Below, piece by piece: positions 3,674 to 63,131 of a DNA stretch of 64,000 nucleotides. Position numbers and translations under genes: made by a program. Origin of the DNA: an uncultured Bacteroidia bacterium (lineage in GTDB: Bacteria > Bacteroidota > Bacteroidia > NS11-12g > UBA9320); assembly GCA_943787465.1 (NCBI GenBank), contig CALSMN010000001.1, forward strand, positions 62,001 through 126,000, read 5' to 3'. The notes beneath the pieces are model-generated. The model searched no databases. It saw only the letters and a list, made by a program, of their open reading frames with translations, and was not told the DNA's origin. Each line of letters opens with the position of its first letter. Position 1 is the stretch's first letter.

Positions 3674-5341
3674 TTGAGACTTATCACTTTTATACCTATA
3701 ATATGTGCGCTTTTGGGTTCAGCAATTACTGTGCCTGCTAAGCTACTGAGGGCTTGTTTGGATTATGACAACAGTATTGTTACTGTAGAGTGGGTACAGC
3801 CCGCCGACTTGTGTGGGTCGTTTACCAAATATTCACTTTATGCCAGCGAGAACGGGGGAGCTTTTACAAAGATTGTAGATATACCTAGTCTGAGTATAGA
3901 AAACTACCCTCACGATATTAGTAATCAGGGTGATCAGTGGCGCTATTACATTACAACACACACAACATGTAATGGAGATGATAGCTTAATCAGCAACATT
4001 ATAGCGATAGACAAAACATATCCTACAAATATTGAGCTTGATTCTGTTAGTTACGATTTAGTGTCGCAAGAATTGGTTGCGGGGTGGTCAAAGAACCCGT
4101 CTATCGACACCAAACACTACGAGCTTTACGACTATAGTTCGGGAAGCGGGGACTACCTTGGTAAAACAACTGATTTAACATTTAATGTTTCAAAAAGCCG
4201 GAACGGCTTCTTTCCTGTCGTATTAGCAACACTTGACAGCTGTAATTTATCTTCTTTATTGTCAAAGCCTCACAGGGCAATACGCTTAAACTCATCAATA
4301 GACACGTGCTTAGGAGAGATATACTTAAACTGGAATCTATATGTGGGTTGGGACAACATAAGCCGTCATGAAATATTTGTTTCTGTTAATAACGGACCGT
4401 ATTCCTTATTTAAAGCCGTTTCTGAGCAAAACAAGAATTTTGTTTATGATAAATTTATGCTGGGTGACACAATAACTGCGTTTGTTAGAGCTTGGAGCCA
4501 AAATGGAACAAAAAGCAGCAGCTCGAATATTGTTAAGCTAGAAACAAGAGCACAAAACAAACCTAGTGAATTTAAAATAGATGTGGTTGATGTGGTTGAC
4601 AATTCTCTGATTATTAGGTTTATATCTAAAAACAACAATGATGTTTCAAAGTTTTTTGTCTGGGAGTTAAGTGAAGCCGAACCCATAGCATCCGTGTTGT
4701 CAAATTCTGACAAAACAGAATTTATTGTTGAGGATAACATAAACAATCCTAATGATGCTATCTTTCATTACAGCGTGAAAGCAATTAACCTGTGCGGAGA
4801 CAGCTTAACGTCAACGGGTTTTGCAAGCAATATTTATTTTGATCCAGAGAAAACTCCCCTTCACAACCCATATGATGGTTGGCTGAGTGGGGCAGAAAGC
4901 TATCGGTTAGAAAAGTACAATGGTTTCACGTGGAACGTTGTTGAGGAGAACACAGGACCTATTGAGAAAGGTGAGTTAACTTTAGAAAGCGGGTGTTATC
5001 GGGTTGTTGCTAGGGAAAAAAACAACGAGACGAACATAAGTCACTCAAACGAAGTCTGTATAAATAAACCGCTAAATGTTTATATAACCACTGCACTTAA
5101 CCCACAGGGGTTGAACAAAAACTTCAGTATTAAGGGAGAGGGCATCGATCACAATCAATCATTTTATACCATCTATAATCGCTGGGGAGAAATTATAAAA
5201 AAATCTAAAACCAACGAGCCCTGGGATGGTTACTATAATGGTAATTTGGTTGCCCCTGGTGTCTATTTGTATATCGTTGACATACAGGGTTATTTGGGTG
5301 AAAAATTACAAGATAAAGGGGTTGTTAATGTTGTTAGATAA
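3674..5341 (+). CDS. Secreted protein with T9SS type-B C-terminal domain
   Basis: A 555-residue exported protein. It starts at a TTG followed by a signal peptide (LITFIPIICALLGSA), which supports this start because no ATG lies close by. The middle (about 25-470) is made of beta-sandwich, fibronectin-III-like repeats of roughly 90-100 residues. The last 75 residues carry the gliding-motility-associated C-terminal domain: YNRWGEII, then PWDGYYNG, then APGVYLYIVD. This is a type IX secretion sorting signal of type B. The specific role is unknown. The gene contains one of the two parS-like sites and overlaps ybeY by 14 bp. Confidence 0.82.
   Translation: MRLITFIPIICALLGSAITVPAKLLRACLDYDNSIVTVEWVQPADLCGSFTKYSLYASENGGAFTKIVDIPSLSIENYPHDISNQGDQWRYYITTHTTCNGDDSLISNIIAIDKTYPTNIELDSVSYDLVSQELVAGWSKNPSIDTKHYELYDYSSGSGDYLGKTTDLTFNVSKSRNGFFPVVLATLDSCNLSSLLSKPHRAIRLNSSIDTCLGEIYLNWNLYVGWDNISRHEIFVSVNNGPYSLFKAVSEQNKNFVYDKFMLGDTITAFVRAWSQNGTKSSSSNIVKLETRAQNKPSEFKIDVVDVVDNSLIIRFISKNNNDVSKFFVWELSEAEPIASVLSNSDKTEFIVEDNINNPNDAIFHYSVKAINLCGDSLTSTGFASNIYFDPEKTPLHNPYDGWLSGAESYRLEKYNGFTWNVVEENTGPIEKGELTLESGCYRVVAREKNNETNISHSNEVCINKPLNVYITTALNPQGLNKNFSIKGEGIDHNQSFYTIYNRWGEIIKKSKTNEPWDGYYNGNLVAPGVYLYIVDIQGYLGEKLQDKGVVNVVR
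4922..4937 (-). promoter_or_regulatory. parS-like ParB binding site, copy 1
   Basis: The plus strand reads GGTTTCACGTGGAACG. On the minus strand the 14-bp core is GTTCCACGTGAAAC, identical to the core of the site at 5733-5748. Compared with the general parS consensus TGTTNCACGTGAAACA, all 14 core positions fit and the two outer bases differ. It lies inside the T9SS-B gene, so it is also coding. It is inferred to nucleate ParB for chromosome segregation. Confidence 0.72.
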
Positions 5342-5744
5342 TATACAAGTACAAACTCGCGGTGAACTTGAAAAACTTATGGATATTGTTGCTTTAAATC
5401 AAATTCACGCCGCACTAAATCTTGAAAAACCTGTAATTTATTGCTTTGTTAATGATGAAGAGCTGCTTAAAGTAAACATAAACATGTTGGGTCACGACTA
5501 TTACACAGACATTATCACATTTGATTATAAGGATGACGATATCGAAGAGGATGAAATTTTGATCAGTTACGAACGTGTAATTGAAAATTCCAAAACGTAT
5601 AACGTGGAGCTGTCAGAAGAGTTACACCGAGTATGTATTCATGGTTTGTTACATATTGCGGGCTTTGGTGATAAAACCAATGAAGAAAAGAAAGAAATGA
5701 GAATGAAAGAGAATTATTACTTAAAAAATTACTGTTCCACGTGA
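5328..5744 (+). CDS. ybeY: Endoribonuclease YbeY (rRNA maturation)
   Basis: A 138-residue single-domain metal-dependent endoribonuclease acting in 16S rRNA 3' end maturation and ribosome quality control. The metal-binding signature is HRVCIHGLLHIAGFGD (H105, H109). The family's third His is Asp/Gly here (GFGDKT), which I recall as usual in Bacteroidota. The frame is open upstream to 5226, but the ATG at 5328 gives the normal length and avoids a long overlap. The stop codon TGA lies inside the parS site and overlaps the mnmG start. Confidence 0.9.
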   Translation: MLLDNIQVQTRGELEKLMDIVALNQIHAALNLEKPVIYCFVNDEELLKVNINMLGHDYYTDIITFDYKDDDIEEDEILISYERVIENSKTYNVELSEELHRVCIHGLLHIAGFGDKTNEEKKEMRMKENYYLKNYCST

Positions 5745-5748
5745 AACC
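5733..5748 (+). promoter_or_regulatory. parS ParB binding site, copy 2
   Basis: The sequence is TGTTCCACGTGAAACC, matching the parS consensus TGTTNCACGTGAAACA at every position but the last. The central GTG is the mnmG start codon and the following TGA is the ybeY stop, so the site is fixed by two genes as well as by its symmetry. The family knowledge used is that ParB (Spo0J) parS sites are 16-bp palindromes clustered near bacterial origins. No parA or parB gene lies in the window. Confidence 0.83.
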
Positions 5749-7606
5749 CAACAATACATATGATTTGATTGTTGTAGGTGCTGGTCACGCTGGTTGTGAG
5801 GCGGCAAACATTGCTGGAAAATTAGGTTCTAAGGTTTTAATGGTAACCATGAACATGGAAACCATCGCCAAAATGTCTTGTAATCCTGCAATTGGGGGGG
5901 TTGCTAAAGGTCAAATTGTGCGAGAAATTGATTGTCTAGGGGGGTTAACAGGGATTGTGTCAGACTACAGCACTATGCAATTTAGAATGTTAAACAAGTC
6001 TAAGGGACCAGCTATGTGGAGTCCAAGGACGCAAAATGACAGAAATCAGTTTTCACTAAAATGGCGTGAGCTTTTGGAGAACAATTTTAATATTGATTTT
6101 TTGCAATCGTCTGTTGGTCAATTAATTATAGAAAAAAACAGGGTTGTTGGTGTTGAAACGACAGATGGAAGTAAAATATTGTCTAAGACTGTGATTTTGA
6201 CAAGCGGGACTTTTATGAATGGGGTTATACATGTTGGTCAAAAACAAAGCAGTGGCGGAAGAATGGGAGACAGTGCTTCTTTTGGAATTACGGAGCAACT
6301 TGTTTCTATTGGTTTTGAAGCGGGGCGTATGAAAACAGGAACGCCGCCAAGAGTTGATGGACGAACCATTAATTATAGTGTATTGGAGGAACAAAAAGGA
6401 GACGATATTCCAGGATGTTTTTCTTTTGTAAAGCCTAACCGAGTAAAAAAACAACATAGTTGTCACATTACTTACACCAACGAAAAGGTGCATGATATTT
6501 TACGCTCAGCTTTTAATAAGAGTCCGCTGTTTAATGGAGCAATAAAGGGGGTTGGCCCTAGGTATTGTCCATCCGTTGAAGATAAGGTAAATCGTTTTGC
6601 TGAACGAACAAGACACCAAATCTTTGTTGAACCCGAAGGGTGGAATACCTATGAAACATACATCAATGGGTTTAGCACCTCTTTGCCTCAAAACATTCAA
6701 TATGAAGCAATGAGACAAATTAAAGGTTTTGAAAATGCTAAAATGTTTAGACCGGGCTATGCTATTGAGTATGATTTTTTTTATCCAACTCAACTTAAAT
6801 TGAGTTTAGAGACAAAAGCTATTGAGGGTTTGTTTTTTGCAGGACAGATCAACGGAACAACAGGATACGAAGAGGCTGCCTGTCAGGGATTGATGGCGGG
6901 CATAAACGCTCACCATCGTATAAACGAAAAGAAACCTTTTGTTTTGAACAGAGGAGAGGCTTATATCGGTGTTTTGATTGACGATCTGGTTAATAAAGGG
7001 ACAAAGGAGCCGTACCGGATGTTTACAAGCAGGGCAGAGTATAGAATTCTTCTAAGGCAAGACAACGCAGATACAAGGCTAATTCCTTTGTCTCATAAAA
7101 TAGGAACGATTTCTGACGAGGAGTATGAAAAGGTTTTGACAAAGTCAAATAATATAAAAAAAATCACTAAAATTTTTGATTCTAAAACTGTTAAGCCTGC
7201 AGAAATAAATGAAATTCTTGAAGAGCGTGGATCTAACCCAATTCCTCAAAATTATATAATTGCTAAAGTTTTAGCTAGGCCGCAAATTTCTCACAATGAT
7301 CTTTTAAGAGTTGATTCTATTAACAAATTGGTTAACGAGTATAGTCAGGAAGAGATTGAACAAGTGGAAATCTTGGTGAAATACAAAAGTTATATTGAAA
7401 CAGAAAAAGAAAATGTAGATCGGCTGAGGAAAATGGAAAATAAGAAAATTTCTGCCGATTTTGATTACAGTTTAATACACTCTTTGTCATTAGAGGCTAT
7501 TGACAAATTGAACAAAATTAAACCAGAGAGCATTGGTCAAGCTTCTAGGATAAGTGGTGTTAGTCCTGCTGACATTTCTGCTTTATTGATTTACTTAAAT
7601 AAATGA
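5741..7606 (+). CDS. mnmG: tRNA uridine 5-carboxymethylaminomethyl modification enzyme MnmG
   Basis: A 621-residue FAD protein that, with MnmE, makes the cmnm5 modification of wobble uridine in tRNA. The N-terminal dinucleotide-binding motif GAGHAGCEAA starts at residue 13. The MnmG signatures GPRYCPSVEDK and GYEEAACQGLMAGINA are present, as is the C-terminal helical domain that binds MnmE. The start codon is GTG at 5741; its position fits the family N-terminus (YDLIVVGAGHAG). The end overlaps the next gene by ATGA. In many bacteria this gene (gidA) is close to oriC. Confidence 0.97.
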   Translation: MKPNNTYDLIVVGAGHAGCEAANIAGKLGSKVLMVTMNMETIAKMSCNPAIGGVAKGQIVREIDCLGGLTGIVSDYSTMQFRMLNKSKGPAMWSPRTQNDRNQFSLKWRELLENNFNIDFLQSSVGQLIIEKNRVVGVETTDGSKILSKTVILTSGTFMNGVIHVGQKQSSGGRMGDSASFGITEQLVSIGFEAGRMKTGTPPRVDGRTINYSVLEEQKGDDIPGCFSFVKPNRVKKQHSCHITYTNEKVHDILRSAFNKSPLFNGAIKGVGPRYCPSVEDKVNRFAERTRHQIFVEPEGWNTYETYINGFSTSLPQNIQYEAMRQIKGFENAKMFRPGYAIEYDFFYPTQLKLSLETKAIEGLFFAGQINGTTGYEEAACQGLMAGINAHHRINEKKPFVLNRGEAYIGVLIDDLVNKGTKEPYRMFTSRAEYRILLRQDNADTRLIPLSHKIGTISDEEYEKVLTKSNNIKKITKIFDSKTVKPAEINEILEERGSNPIPQNYIIAKVLARPQISHNDLLRVDSINKLVNEYSQEEIEQVEILVKYKSYIETEKENVDRLRKMENKKISADFDYSLIHSLSLEAIDKLNKIKPESIGQASRISGVSPADISALLIYLNK

Positions 7607-9108
7607 AATTTTTATATCCTTTTGCTTTGTTGTTCCTATCCTGTGCTTCTATTCAGTCCCTAGAAGGCGGGCCTAAGGATAGTAACGGACCTAGTATAAG
7701 CCGTATTGTTCCAGCATATGGAGAAAAGCACGTTACTGATCCAGTAATTGTTATTGATTTTGATGAATATATTAAATCAGATAAACTCGATGAGGTAATT
7801 ATTATATCACCAAATCAAATAGTAAAACCCACCATTAAAATAAAAAATAAAAGACTAACGATTCGATTAAACGACTCATTACTTTTAGATAAAACATATA
7901 CTATCCAATTAAATAATGGCATTGTTGATGTTAACGAAGGGAACCCTGTAGGTAATATACAACATGTGTTTTCAACAGGAGACTATGTAGACTCCTTTTC
8001 TTATAAAGGTGTGGTGTTTTCAAATTTAAATCAAAACGTTTTAAAAAATTACAATGTTCATCTATATGAAAATCAAAACGATAGTTGTATTCTTAACGTG
8101 AAACCTAATTATTTAATTAAAACAAATAAAAATGGAGAATTCCAGTTTGATAATCTTCCTAATCAAAAATTTATGGTTCTTGTGTTAAACGATGAAAATA
8201 AAAACCTATTGTATGATTATAATGAAGAATCCTCTGTTCTTTCATATATAGAAAGTAATAAAACTAAAGGGGATACTTTTTACACATTTTTAAGTAAAAA
8301 AGAAAAATATATACCGTCTTTAATAAAACCTAGATTTCCTGGTGTGGTAAATTTTAAAATGAATCAACCATTGTATATAGATACCGTGGATGTAATAATT
8401 AATGATACGAAAACTAAATATTTTATAAATAATACAAGAGATACCATTACTGCTTATTGTGATTCAATGATTGAATCAATAAAAATATATATAGGTGCAG
8501 ATAGTTTTGATTTTAATTATAATATAGATAGTAGCAGTTATAAAATGATACCAAGATTAACCTATACGTTACTATACAATAAAATTAAAATTAAATCTAC
8601 AATTCCAGGAAAATTTGACTCAGAATTTTTAAATATACACGTTGATGATAAAGATGTTAATTTTCAATTGTCTAAATTAAATCCTCAAGAAATAGAAATA
8701 GATTTAGAAGCTAACGATAAAATACAATTAAATATTAAAGAAGGATTTATAACAACATATTTTCATCAAACAAATAAGTTAGATACTATTATAATAAATA
8801 AAAAACATGATTATAAAAATCAGTTAATTATTAATTTAAAAACCACAAAAACAGAAAAATATATAATAGAATTAATCCGGGAAAAGCAAATAATTGAATG
8901 TCGGTATTTGAGTGATATAAATAAGCAAGTATTTAAAAATATTGAGCCGGGATTATATGATATAAGAATAATAAAAGATTTAAATAAAAATAAAATATGG
9001 GATCCTGGCTCAATATTTTTAAAAGTACATTCAGAACCAGTAAAAATATATACCAATATTAATATTAGAGAAAATTGGATTAACAACTTAGATATTAACC
9101 AATTATAA
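7603..9108 (+). CDS. Lipoprotein with N-terminal Ig-like (SbsA-type) domain
   Basis: A 501-residue lipoprotein. The signal peptide ends in the lipobox LFLSC (C14). Residues about 30-125 look like a bacterial Ig-like domain of the SbsA/Big_5 type (ISRIVPAYGEKHVTDPVIVIDFDEYI, then LDKTYTIQLNNGIVDVNEGNPV). The rest is low-complexity, rich in Asn, Lys and Ile, and beta-rich. The family is common in Bacteroidota without known function. It is translationally coupled to mnmG (ATGA overlap). Base composition falls to roughly 20% G+C over the last kilobase. Confidence 0.75.
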   Translation: MKFLYPFALLFLSCASIQSLEGGPKDSNGPSISRIVPAYGEKHVTDPVIVIDFDEYIKSDKLDEVIIISPNQIVKPTIKIKNKRLTIRLNDSLLLDKTYTIQLNNGIVDVNEGNPVGNIQHVFSTGDYVDSFSYKGVVFSNLNQNVLKNYNVHLYENQNDSCILNVKPNYLIKTNKNGEFQFDNLPNQKFMVLVLNDENKNLLYDYNEESSVLSYIESNKTKGDTFYTFLSKKEKYIPSLIKPRFPGVVNFKMNQPLYIDTVDVIINDTKTKYFINNTRDTITAYCDSMIESIKIYIGADSFDFNYNIDSSSYKMIPRLTYTLLYNKIKIKSTIPGKFDSEFLNIHVDDKDVNFQLSKLNPQEIEIDLEANDKIQLNIKEGFITTYFHQTNKLDTIIINKKHDYKNQLIINLKTTKTEKYIIELIREKQIIECRYLSDINKQVFKNIEPGLYDIRIIKDLNKNKIWDPGSIFLKVHSEPVKIYTNINIRENWINNLDINQL

Positions 9109-9461
9109 AATTATACACATACTTAATAACAAAATATGTTTAAATAATAAGTACAAAATAATTTAGATGAATTAATATATTTTATCTTCAATATAAAATA
9201 TATATATACGTGATATTAACATTAAAAACTGCTCTTTTTAACATGTTAATTATTAACAGAATTGTGTTAAAATAATAATAATTAAAGTGTTATTAAATTA
9301 TTATTAATTAATAATCAGTATTTTATAAAAATAGATATGTTAAAAATATGTTATTTTAATTTTTAAAAAAAATATTATAACCATATCAACATACACTTAT
9401 ATAATTACTATAATTATTTAAATTTATATATAAAACTATATAAATAATAGAAGAATGGAAA
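9109..9461. other. Extremely AT-rich gene-free region with a DnaA box; candidate replication origin
   Basis: No reading frame or RNA gene is recognisable here. By direct count, bases 9121-9460 contain 42 G or C out of 340, about 12%. At its left edge, 9111-9119 is TTATACACA, a perfect match to the DnaA box TTATNCACA. Inside are a near-palindrome GTTAATTATTAAC (9245-9257) and repeated ATATGTTA motifs around 9336-9355. The stretch could serve as a DNA-unwinding element, or could simply be a degenerate promoter region for pheS. Only one perfect DnaA box is present, so the origin call is an inference resting mainly on context. Confidence 0.4.
9111..9119 (+). promoter_or_regulatory. DnaA box (TTATACACA)
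   Basis: Exact match to TTATNCACA, three bases after the stop codon of the Ig-like lipoprotein gene and at the edge of the AT-rich stretch. Single boxes occur by chance in AT-rich DNA, so its value depends on its position beside the two parS sites and mnmG. Confidence 0.4.
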
Positions 9462-9506
9462 ATGGATATTGTTCCTTTTTTAATATTCGCTTTATTTGTT
9501 AAAAAT

Positions 9507-10514
9507 ATGAAGGAAAAACTAAATAAAATAGATGAAAGTGCACAAAATTTTATAATTAAATCAAAAAATGATTTAGAAAATTTTAGGTTAAAATTTTTAG
9601 TTAAAAAAGGTATTTTAAATACACTTTTCCTGGAATTTAAAGAACTTCCTTCTGAAGAAAAGAAAGAGATTGGTCAGCTGTTAAATAATTTAAAAAAATC
9701 GATAGAGGGTATTTATCAATCAGAAAATTCAAAACTCAATAAAGAAGAAAATATTAATAATCAAAACAATGAATTGCCAGGATATTTTTCTGAGTTAGGA
9801 AGTAGACATATTATTAGTCAAGTTTTAGATGATATGATAGAAATTTTCGAACGTTTAGGTTTTTCTGTTTCCACAGGCCCAGAAATAGAAGATGACTGGC
9901 ATAATTTCTCTGCATTAAATTTTCCTAAAAATCATCCTGCAAGAGACATGCAAGACACATTTTTTGTTGAAGAAGAGCTTGCATTAAGGACACACACCTC
10001 TTCTGTACAAGTAAGACTTATGGAAAAAGGAGATTTACCTATTCGAAGCATTATGCCCGGACGTGTTTATAGAAATGAAGCTATATCAGCTCGCTCAAAC
10101 TGTTTTTTTCATCAAGTTGAGGGTTTATATATAGATAAAGGTGTTTCTTTCTCAGATCTAAAACAAACGCTATATAATTTTGTGAAAGAATTTTTTGGAC
10201 CCGAAACTAAGGTAAGATTTAGAGCCTCTTATTTTCCTTTTACAGAACCAAGTGCAGAAATGGATATCTTTTTAGGTACAAAAACAGAATCAGATAACAG
10301 GTTAACCAAAGGTACAGGTTGGTTAGAAATTTTAGGTTGTGGAATGGTAGATCCTAATGTATTGGTTAATTGTAATATAGACCCAAAAACATATACTGGG
10401 TTTGCATTTGGATTAGGTGTAGATCGAATTGCGATGTTAAAATATGGAGTAAAAGATTTACGAACTTTTTTTAATAACGATCAACGTTTTTTAGGCCAGT
10501 TTCAGAGTTTATAA
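9507..10514 (+). CDS. pheS: Phenylalanyl-tRNA synthetase alpha subunit
   Basis: A 335-residue class II synthetase subunit that charges tRNA-Phe as an alpha2-beta2 enzyme with PheT, which is not in the window. The N-terminal helical coiled region (1-90) is followed by the catalytic core: motif 2 region GRVYRNEAISARSNCFFHQVEG, FPFTEPSAEMD, and motif 3 GFAFGLGVDRIAMLKYG. The frame is open from 9462, but the ATG at 9507 (MKEKLNKIDE) starts where the family normally begins, and the extra residues are hydrophobic and atypical. The first 250 bp are strikingly AT-rich. Confidence 0.95.
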   Translation: MKEKLNKIDESAQNFIIKSKNDLENFRLKFLVKKGILNTLFLEFKELPSEEKKEIGQLLNNLKKSIEGIYQSENSKLNKEENINNQNNELPGYFSELGSRHIISQVLDDMIEIFERLGFSVSTGPEIEDDWHNFSALNFPKNHPARDMQDTFFVEEELALRTHTSSVQVRLMEKGDLPIRSIMPGRVYRNEAISARSNCFFHQVEGLYIDKGVSFSDLKQTLYNFVKEFFGPETKVRFRASYFPFTEPSAEMDIFLGTKTESDNRLTKGTGWLEILGCGMVDPNVLVNCNIDPKTYTGFAFGLGVDRIAMLKYGVKDLRTFFNNDQRFLGQFQSL

Positions 10515-50255: not shown

Positions 50256-50277
50256 TTATTCAGAAGAGTTAGTCTAT

Positions 50278-50779
50278 TTATTCCAATTTAAAATTCACAC
50301 TAGGGTATCTTTTTCTAGTTTGGTCGTAGGGGTCCATTTCATCTAGTCGTTCGATTAAAATGAAATCTCCTTTTTTAAGTGTGAGTATTTTATTCATCAT
50401 TTCTTCGGAGATTATTCCTCCTGTTGAAGAGTGCATGGATGTGCTGCCATTTTGAGAAGATATCGCACGAGTGTACAGGCGTACTCGTTTTCCTCGGTTA
50501 GTTTGTTAAGTACTAATGGGTGCATCGTTCTTATATCTTCCAGTTGAAGTACTATACGATTGGTTCATGCTCCTCCGTTTTCACAGGCTAATACGCGTCT
50601 AAAGTCCCGATACCATGTTAGGGTGATTTGCAAGCCTTAAGGGAGACATCTTCAACGGTACGTAAGTTATACCTTTGGCTAACCCATACATATGCGCCGT
50701 GGCTTTTTCATAAGAAAGCCGGTTGGAAATATAACCGACTATTAAAATAAAAGTAGTAATGTATTAGTGTATTCTTCAT
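50278..50779 (-). pseudogene. Decayed gene with GldM-like C-terminal domain
   Basis: No intact frame exists, but minus-strand pieces are clearly coding-like. From about 50505 to the TAA at 50278-50280 the frame reads through SSTGGIISEEMM, KKGDFILIERLDEMDPYDQ and TRKRYPSVNFKLE. This fits the last beta-domain of gliding protein GldM (GG..T.EM...L..GD.I..E.I...DG..R..P.ISFK). Upstream pieces lie in other frames with stops (TAA near 50508, TAG near 50600). An ATG at 50779 with a promoter may be the original start. Confidence 0.6.
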
Positions 50780-50787
50780 AGTTTGTA

Positions 50788-50819
50788 CAAAATTATGTTT
50801 AAAAATTACAAATTACAAA
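50788..50819 (-). promoter_or_regulatory. Intact promoter upstream of the decayed GldM-like gene
   Basis: Minus strand: TTTG (50819-50816), 20 bp, TAATTTTG (50795-50788), a full match to the Bacteroidota pattern, ending 8 bases before the ATG at 50779. The promoter seems intact although the gene it served is broken. Confidence 0.65.
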
Positions 50820-50915
50820 ATGATTACTATTGAGTACAGTCCATTACATCTACTAAAAACTGTAAAATGCTGATTTTAAGATTACTACACGAAACAAAGT
50901 TTGTGACTCAATTTA

Positions 50916-61877: not shown

Positions 61878-63131
61878 ATGCGATACATTCTAGGGGCACT
61901 CATGTTAGTGTCATGTTTTTTTTCTTTCTCTCAAAATATAGATGTAGCATCTCAGACCATTGAAGATTTATGCAGTCGAGAATTTGCAGGTAGAGGATAT
62001 TTAGATAGTGGAGATCGATTCGCGGCAGATTATATAGCTAAAAAATTCAGTTCTTTTAACTTAAAAAAATTTACAAAAAACTATCAACATCCCGTTTCTT
62101 TATCTGTGAATACTATTCCAAAATCTGATGTATTAATTGATGGAAAAGAGCTTATACCAGGCTTAGATTATTTAATTTCCCCTAGTGCTAATTCAATTTC
62201 AGGTGATTATTTGATATTTTATATTTCACCTAAAATATTAAATGCTCCTAAATTGGTTTCTAAGGTAAAAAAAGCCATTAAAAGAGGATATGTGCCCGTG
62301 GTACCTGTATATGATTCAAAAAATGGTGAATTGGAAAAAAAAATTCAGACACTCCGATTAATATCAAAAAATAAACCCATTATTTTCTTGAAGAAACAAT
62401 TGATTTGGAGTGTATCTACTCACCAGTCGAATAGCACAGAAATATGGATGATTGACTCTTCTTTTAATCGATTCTCAAAGCAAATACATATGAATGTAGT
62501 TTCTAAATTCATACCTACGTATACAACCAGTAATGTCATTGGGTATGTTGAAGGAACTATTATCCCAGATAGTTTTATTATTTTATGTGGTCATTATGAT
62601 CACTTAGGTAGAATGGGTGAAGCTGTATTTTACGGAGCCAATGATAATGCCAGCGGCATCGCCATGTTGTTAGATCTCGCTTCTTATTTTTCAAGGAACC
62701 CACAGAAATACAGCATAGCATTTGTAGCGTTTGGAGCGGAAGAAGCAGGATTATTGGGTTCTTTAGCCTATGTAAAACAGCCTCAAATACCGTTAAACCA
62801 AACTAAGTTTGTATTTAACATGGATTTAATGGGATCGGGTCATGAAGGAGCAACGATAGTCAATGGTAAAATTTATACGGAATATTATGAAAAATTAAAC
62901 CAAATAAATACAAAAATGAAATATTTACCATCCCTAAAAGCAAGAGGAAAAGCAGCCAATAGTGATCATTATTTTTTTAGTGAGGCAGGTGTTCCTTCAT
63001 TTTTTATTTATCTGATGGGTGATTATAAATATTATCATGTTCCAGATGATAATCCGACTCATCTTAAGCTAGGTCATTATTATACTCAAAGCTATTTATT
63101 AATTAGTGATTTTATCATGAGTTTAAATTAG
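61878..63131 (+). CDS. M28 family zinc peptidase, exported
   Basis: A 417-residue protein with signal peptide (GALMLVSCFFSFSQ). A protease-associated-like region occupies about 80-210; the M28 catalytic domain follows with the zinc ligands in GHYDHLG, NDNASG, GAEEAGLLGS, NMDLMG and the final His in YYHVPDD. It is probably a periplasmic or outer-membrane aminopeptidase. It is divergent from pnuC; a 7-bp stem hairpin lies between them. Confidence 0.9.
   Translation: MRYILGALMLVSCFFSFSQNIDVASQTIEDLCSREFAGRGYLDSGDRFAADYIAKKFSSFNLKKFTKNYQHPVSLSVNTIPKSDVLIDGKELIPGLDYLISPSANSISGDYLIFYISPKILNAPKLVSKVKKAIKRGYVPVVPVYDSKNGELEKKIQTLRLISKNKPIIFLKKQLIWSVSTHQSNSTEIWMIDSSFNRFSKQIHMNVVSKFIPTYTTSNVIGYVEGTIIPDSFIILCGHYDHLGRMGEAVFYGANDNASGIAMLLDLASYFSRNPQKYSIAFVAFGAEEAGLLGSLAYVKQPQIPLNQTKFVFNMDLMGSGHEGATIVNGKIYTEYYEKLNQINTKMKYLPSLKARGKAANSDHYFFSEAGVPSFFIYLMGDYKYYHVPDDNPTHLKLGHYYTQSYLLISDFIMSLN

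Follow-up and report, generated by a model that had tools for sequence, protein, structure and literature searches.

A very probable chromosomal replication origin in an AT-rich intergenic region between mnmG and pheS of an uncultured Bacteroidia bacterium

The window analysed here is a stretch of 64,000 nucleotides (positions 62,001 to 126,000 of contig C1) from a genome of ten contigs and 1.97 Mb. Three genes on the plus strand frame the region of interest. The flanking marker gene mnmG (gidA) is located at 5741-7606 (Pfam GIDA, 4e-158) and is followed by a gene for an Ig-like (Big_5) lipoprotein at 7603-9108 with a G+C content of 24.8%, which forms the left border of an intergenic gap; pheS (Pfam tRNA-synt_2d) forms the right border. 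From the stop of the lipoprotein gene (9108) to the longest pheS open reading frame (9462) the gap measures 353 bp with 12.5% G+C, and it lies at 71.1 kb of C1. The pheS genes of relatives align with the window ORF from its Met16 onwards, and 9507 rather than 9462 is, by this alignment, the most likely start of pheS (9507-10514). Since the relatives' pheS begins at the equivalent of Met16, the gap probably ends at 9506 and spans about 398 bp, which is comparable to the gaps of relatives (mostly 338-417 bp, shortest 251 bp). The candidate oriC region is accordingly given here as 9109-9506 on the plus strand (9461 by the longest ORF); it holds the G+C minimum of the genome and its position is kept in relatives.

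A sequence-only reading of the window had described the gap at 9109-9461 as AT-rich with about 12% G+C, and this composition is real. Where that reading gave 42 G or C in 340 bases, a scan of 1,969,127 bases on all ten contigs, leaving out a run of N on C3, found the lowest G+C of any 340-bp stretch inside the gap, with 40 G or C (11.8%). The runner-up on C5 had 51 (15.0%). This second most AT-rich stretch (G000:C5:200112-200451) is far from the candidate origin. An AT-rich unwinding region is among the features expected of an oriC, and the gap (12.5% G+C) provides the lowest G+C content in the genome. The distance of 1.5 kb to mnmG, which ends at 7606, was given correctly. A longer ORF-free gap, the longest of the window, occurs at 50256-50915 (660 bp, 35% G+C). 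Low G+C also extends from the gap into both bordering genes (7603-10514), with a similar trend in relatives. Among 1201 ORFs of at least 200 amino acids only one is more AT-rich than the Ig-like lipoprotein gene (24.8%, GC3 16.5%), and GC3 of pheS is 17%.

Two perfect parS sites matching GTTNCACGTGNAAC are found upstream of the gap, and no other perfect site exists in the 1.97 Mb of the genome. One of them, GTTTCACGTGGAAC at 4923-4936, lies within an upstream gene with a T9SS signal (CHU_C), and the other, GTTCCACGTGAAAC at 5734-5747, at the ybeY/mnmG junction, where it is kept in most relatives, just 5′ of mnmG. They are 4.2 and 3.4 kb from the gap, respectively; the nearer site had been reported before at this distance and the farther one is an addition. 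Genomes with ParB are expected to carry parS close to oriC, and here, with a single ParB gene on C5, both perfect sites are within 4.2 kb. In several relatives at the level of the order, the gap itself holds a parS palindrome or one close to it, exact in L162 and with small changes at the ends in L152, L153, L157, L160 and L173. Such sites inside the gap are a trait of these order-level relatives, unlike the window's genus.

The one perfect DnaA box announced for the gap, TTATACACA at 9111-9119 (plus strand), was recovered and is the sole exact match to TTATNCACA in the window. Genome-wide, however, TTATNCACA has 51 matches versus 82 for a reversed control. Because of this lack of enrichment, exact matches on their own were rejected as a marker of the origin and the box at 9111 by itself carries little weight. 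It is an outlying box, aligned with TTATCAACA/TTATTAACA in relatives, and the core is situated near the opposite, pheS-side end of the gap. A search for weaker boxes, as had been proposed, revealed several degenerate ones at the positions of better boxes in relatives (one box is exact). These comprise a second 5′ box-like site, TTAATAACA at 9123-9131 (plus strand), which is kept across the genus; a central degenerate box, TTATTAACA at 9250-9258 (plus strand), which reads TTATCCACA in the aligned L136 and L138; and two TTAACA-type box-like sites on the minus strand (9338-9357), TGTTAAAAA at 9338-9346 and TGTTATTTT at 9349-9357, again kept across the genus. The core itself consists of an overlapping pair of boxes on the plus strand, TTATAACCA/ATATCAACA at 9375-9391 with an 8-nt offset, identified from an alignment of 23 loci and a leave-one-out profile. 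In relatives the pair reads e.g. TTATCACCATATCCACA or TTTTCCACATATCCACA.

After a gap of 4 nt the box pair is followed on the plus strand by an array resembling DnaA-trios at 9396-9422 (CTT ATA TAA TTA CTA TAA TTA TTT AAA). DnaA-trios have been defined as triplets that follow paired boxes at a short distance and read 3′-NAN-5′ on the partner strand, and a basal unwinding system (BUS) as a DnaA box, single or tandem, followed at most 16 bp on by at least three consecutive NAN triplets on the trio strand (PMC8287927). The conserved middle base is present in six of the nine triplets of the window array; two of the first eight violate the trio rule, and near the box no more than two consecutive triplets conform in the core frame. 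L136, L140 and L142 carry 6-7 consecutive trios after a 4-nt gap, in agreement with the BUS definition. Across the genus, the middle base occurs on average in 6.25 of 9 triplets in the core frame versus about 3.5 in either alternative frame, with a consensus of CTT ATA nTA CTA CTA TTA. The window copy of the core (9375-9422) is more degenerate than those of its genus relatives, and in gaps outside the genus the trios are less clear.

We searched 40 genomes, including the one under study, and compared the surroundings of mnmG, which was found in 34 of them (parS in 32). Two families of the order, one of them that of the organism under study, share the arrangement ybeY - mnmG - Ig-like lipoprotein - gap - pheS. 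Conservation among relatives, as expected of an oriC, was found for both the gap and its core: 22 other genomes of these two families have an AT-rich gap at the equivalent place with the core near the pheS side. The G+C content of the gaps ranges from 12 to 33% and is in every case below the mean of the locus. Alignment of all 23 gaps revealed one strong common block, on the pheS side, made up of the overlapping DnaA boxes, about 4 bp and the trio-like triplets. A weight matrix built from the other 22 sequences ranked the window site first on both strands of the whole genome with 37.7 bits, compared to 18.3 bits for the runner-up. In nhmmer searches with profiles lacking the window sequence the site was likewise the top hit (E = 0.06, or 1.5e-4 when the profile was restricted to the genus), while a profile from other genera alone did not find it in the whole genome. 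Among more distant loci, a profile search was significant for L173 alone, and the loci devoid of pheS gave no significant match (E about 5).

These latter loci, L175 (annotated as Flavobacteriales) and L177 (Crocinitomicaceae), were found by MnmG similarity and have no pheS within the stretch. In both, a similar core, TATACTATATCAACAAGCTAATAATAATAA, occurs in an AT-rich gap that lies 4.4-4.8 kb beyond mnmG. As the profile scores are not significant there, the case for this core rests on pairwise conservation: 74 of 76 positions of the core block are identical between the two (97%), versus about 75% in the remaining gap and 71% in coding sequence. Coding constraint was considered because a MORN-like repeat gene may start within the core, and was rejected, since nucleotide identity is higher in the block than in either the gap or the coding sequence.

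The cumulative GC skew ascends on C2, C3 (after a small initial dip), C8, C9 and C10 and descends on C4, C6 and C7. The only interior maximum is that of C5, at about 75-100 kb, and it likely marks the terminus. An interior minimum is seen on C1 alone of the ten contigs; it is broad, at about 53-101 kb, and spans the gap, so that the far-off minimum named beforehand as an argument against an origin was not observed. The raw curve of C1 drops until about 60 kb, shows a noisy plateau up to about 105 kb and climbs thereafter. With correction for gene strand, in a fit without intercept, the minimum falls at 53 kb (range within 2 lnL units, 38-62 kb), and a second low follows at about 90-100 kb; the gap at 71.1 kb lies between these lows, at a distance of 18 kb from the first. 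When the intercept was left free, a strand-corrected two-level change-point model put the step at C1 207 kb, which marks where the skew becomes strong and not a change of sign, and was discarded. The skew switch expected at an oriC is therefore present at a resolution of tens of kb, and it backs the region rather than the base, as a one-switch model would favour 53 kb. The dnaA gene, noted before as absent from the neighborhood, is encoded on C6, and an origin adjacent to dnaA was rejected, C6 being far from the skew switch. Such a distance is normal, since oriC in Bacteroidetes is commonly far from dnaA, for example in Prevotella intermedia (PMC4755523).

Two other readings of the gap were weighed. 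It might serve pheS as an extended AT-rich 5′ leader or as a regulatory region (an attenuator or promoter region), with the origin elsewhere on C1. The gap does precede pheS in most relatives, many gaps end in a promoter motif of the Bacteroidota type (TAnnTTTG-like), and in genus g9 (L146, L147, L171 and L172) the AT-rich, DnaA-box-bearing gap stayed upstream of pheS after the mnmG/parS block had left, the two being separated by 7.6 kb and, in one genome, by 39 kb. The separation in this genus indicates that the likely origin can lose its proximity to parS. However, an Rfam search of the gap for leader families including the T-box gave nothing near the gathering score, the conserved core consists of DnaA boxes and trios and is well upstream of the promoter, and some relatives have parS-like sites inside the equivalent gap. 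Neither the core nor the parS-like sites are features of leaders, and two genomes without pheS keep a similar core near mnmG. A promoter would also leave the skew and parS pattern unexplained. The leader, which the sequence-only reading had kept as an alternative, is for these reasons highly improbable.

Slightly less credible still is a true oriC nearby, within about 50 kb, with the gap as a secondary, titration-like DnaA-binding locus or a mere AT-rich spacer. It would agree with the skew minimum, which after strand correction is at C1 53 kb instead of 71 kb, and with the degenerate state of the boxes in the gap; yet scanning the genome for the complete core revealed no competing site of comparable score, and synteny, parS and the AT minimum all indicate the gap at 9109-9461. 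Several lines converge (base composition, the parS pair, skew, gene order and a core of boxes and trios kept in relatives), and for this reason the chromosomal replication origin is by far the best reading of the gap and, in our view, a very probable one; what had been put forward as a possible oriC is strongly supported. Points that speak against it are the single exact box, the degenerate core boxes and interrupted trios, the blurred skew minimum, the missed site with the profile from other genera, the non-significant profile hits in the loci devoid of pheS and the separation of the gap from mnmG/parS in genus g9.

Where the locus lies, its base composition, its conservation, the two parS sites and the course of the skew can be read directly from the DNA. 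How the locus would work is suggested by homology, which applies to DnaA binding, unwinding and initiation as well as to ParB binding. DnaA, encoded far away on C6, would bind the outlying boxes and the core pair at 9375-9391, and a DnaA filament may then extend onto one strand of the trio array at 9396-9422 and open the DNA of 12% G+C for helicase loading. ParB would act on the two parS sites 3-4 kb upstream in the segregation of new origins.

The type of origin is already known, given that oriC away from dnaA and beside mnmG is predicted in the literature for this phylum (PMC4755523, PMC11278836, PMC12843772); the earlier suggestion of an unusual or cryptic origin thus does not apply. Ori-Finder placed oriC beside mnmG in the Flavobacteriaceae Mariniflexile litorale (PMC11278836) and Algorimicrobium (PMC12843772), which belong to the same phylum and probably the same order, and in both, as here, the origin is away from dnaA and agrees with GC skew. 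For these organisms an Ori-Finder position is given, whereas a conserved core and a parS pair are described for the window locus, which has more degenerate boxes and a lower G+C content. With Prevotella intermedia (PMC4755523) it shares the distance from dnaA and DnaA boxes at the skew switch; that origin was found by multiple DnaA boxes, compared to one exact box here. The core resembles the BUS of Bacillus subtilis (PMC8287927, PMC6669920) in its box pair, the gap of about 4 nt and triplets with conserved middle base at the expected distance. Unlike the tandem boxes and trios of B. subtilis, however, the window boxes are degenerate and overlap by one base (8-nt offset), the spacer between boxes and trios is not GC-rich and the run of trios is interrupted. 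Three details stand out: the core boxes share one base, most boxes have decayed in this AT-drifted genome, and low G+C extends into the flanking genes.

The locus provides a candidate oriC at base-level resolution for a lineage of flavobacteria represented here by draft assemblies only. The conserved core can be used to place origins in relatives, which would aid depth-based estimates of growth rate and the orientation of assemblies, and its natural DnaA-box/trio variants offer a way of testing how far boxes can decay. It is a rather unlikely, though conceivable, prospect that this origin works with nearly no consensus boxes, by means of the overlapping degenerate pair and a broken trio array. 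If true, such a degenerate-box origin would represent a minimal, relaxed version of the unwinding system that is confined to some of the Flavobacteriales.
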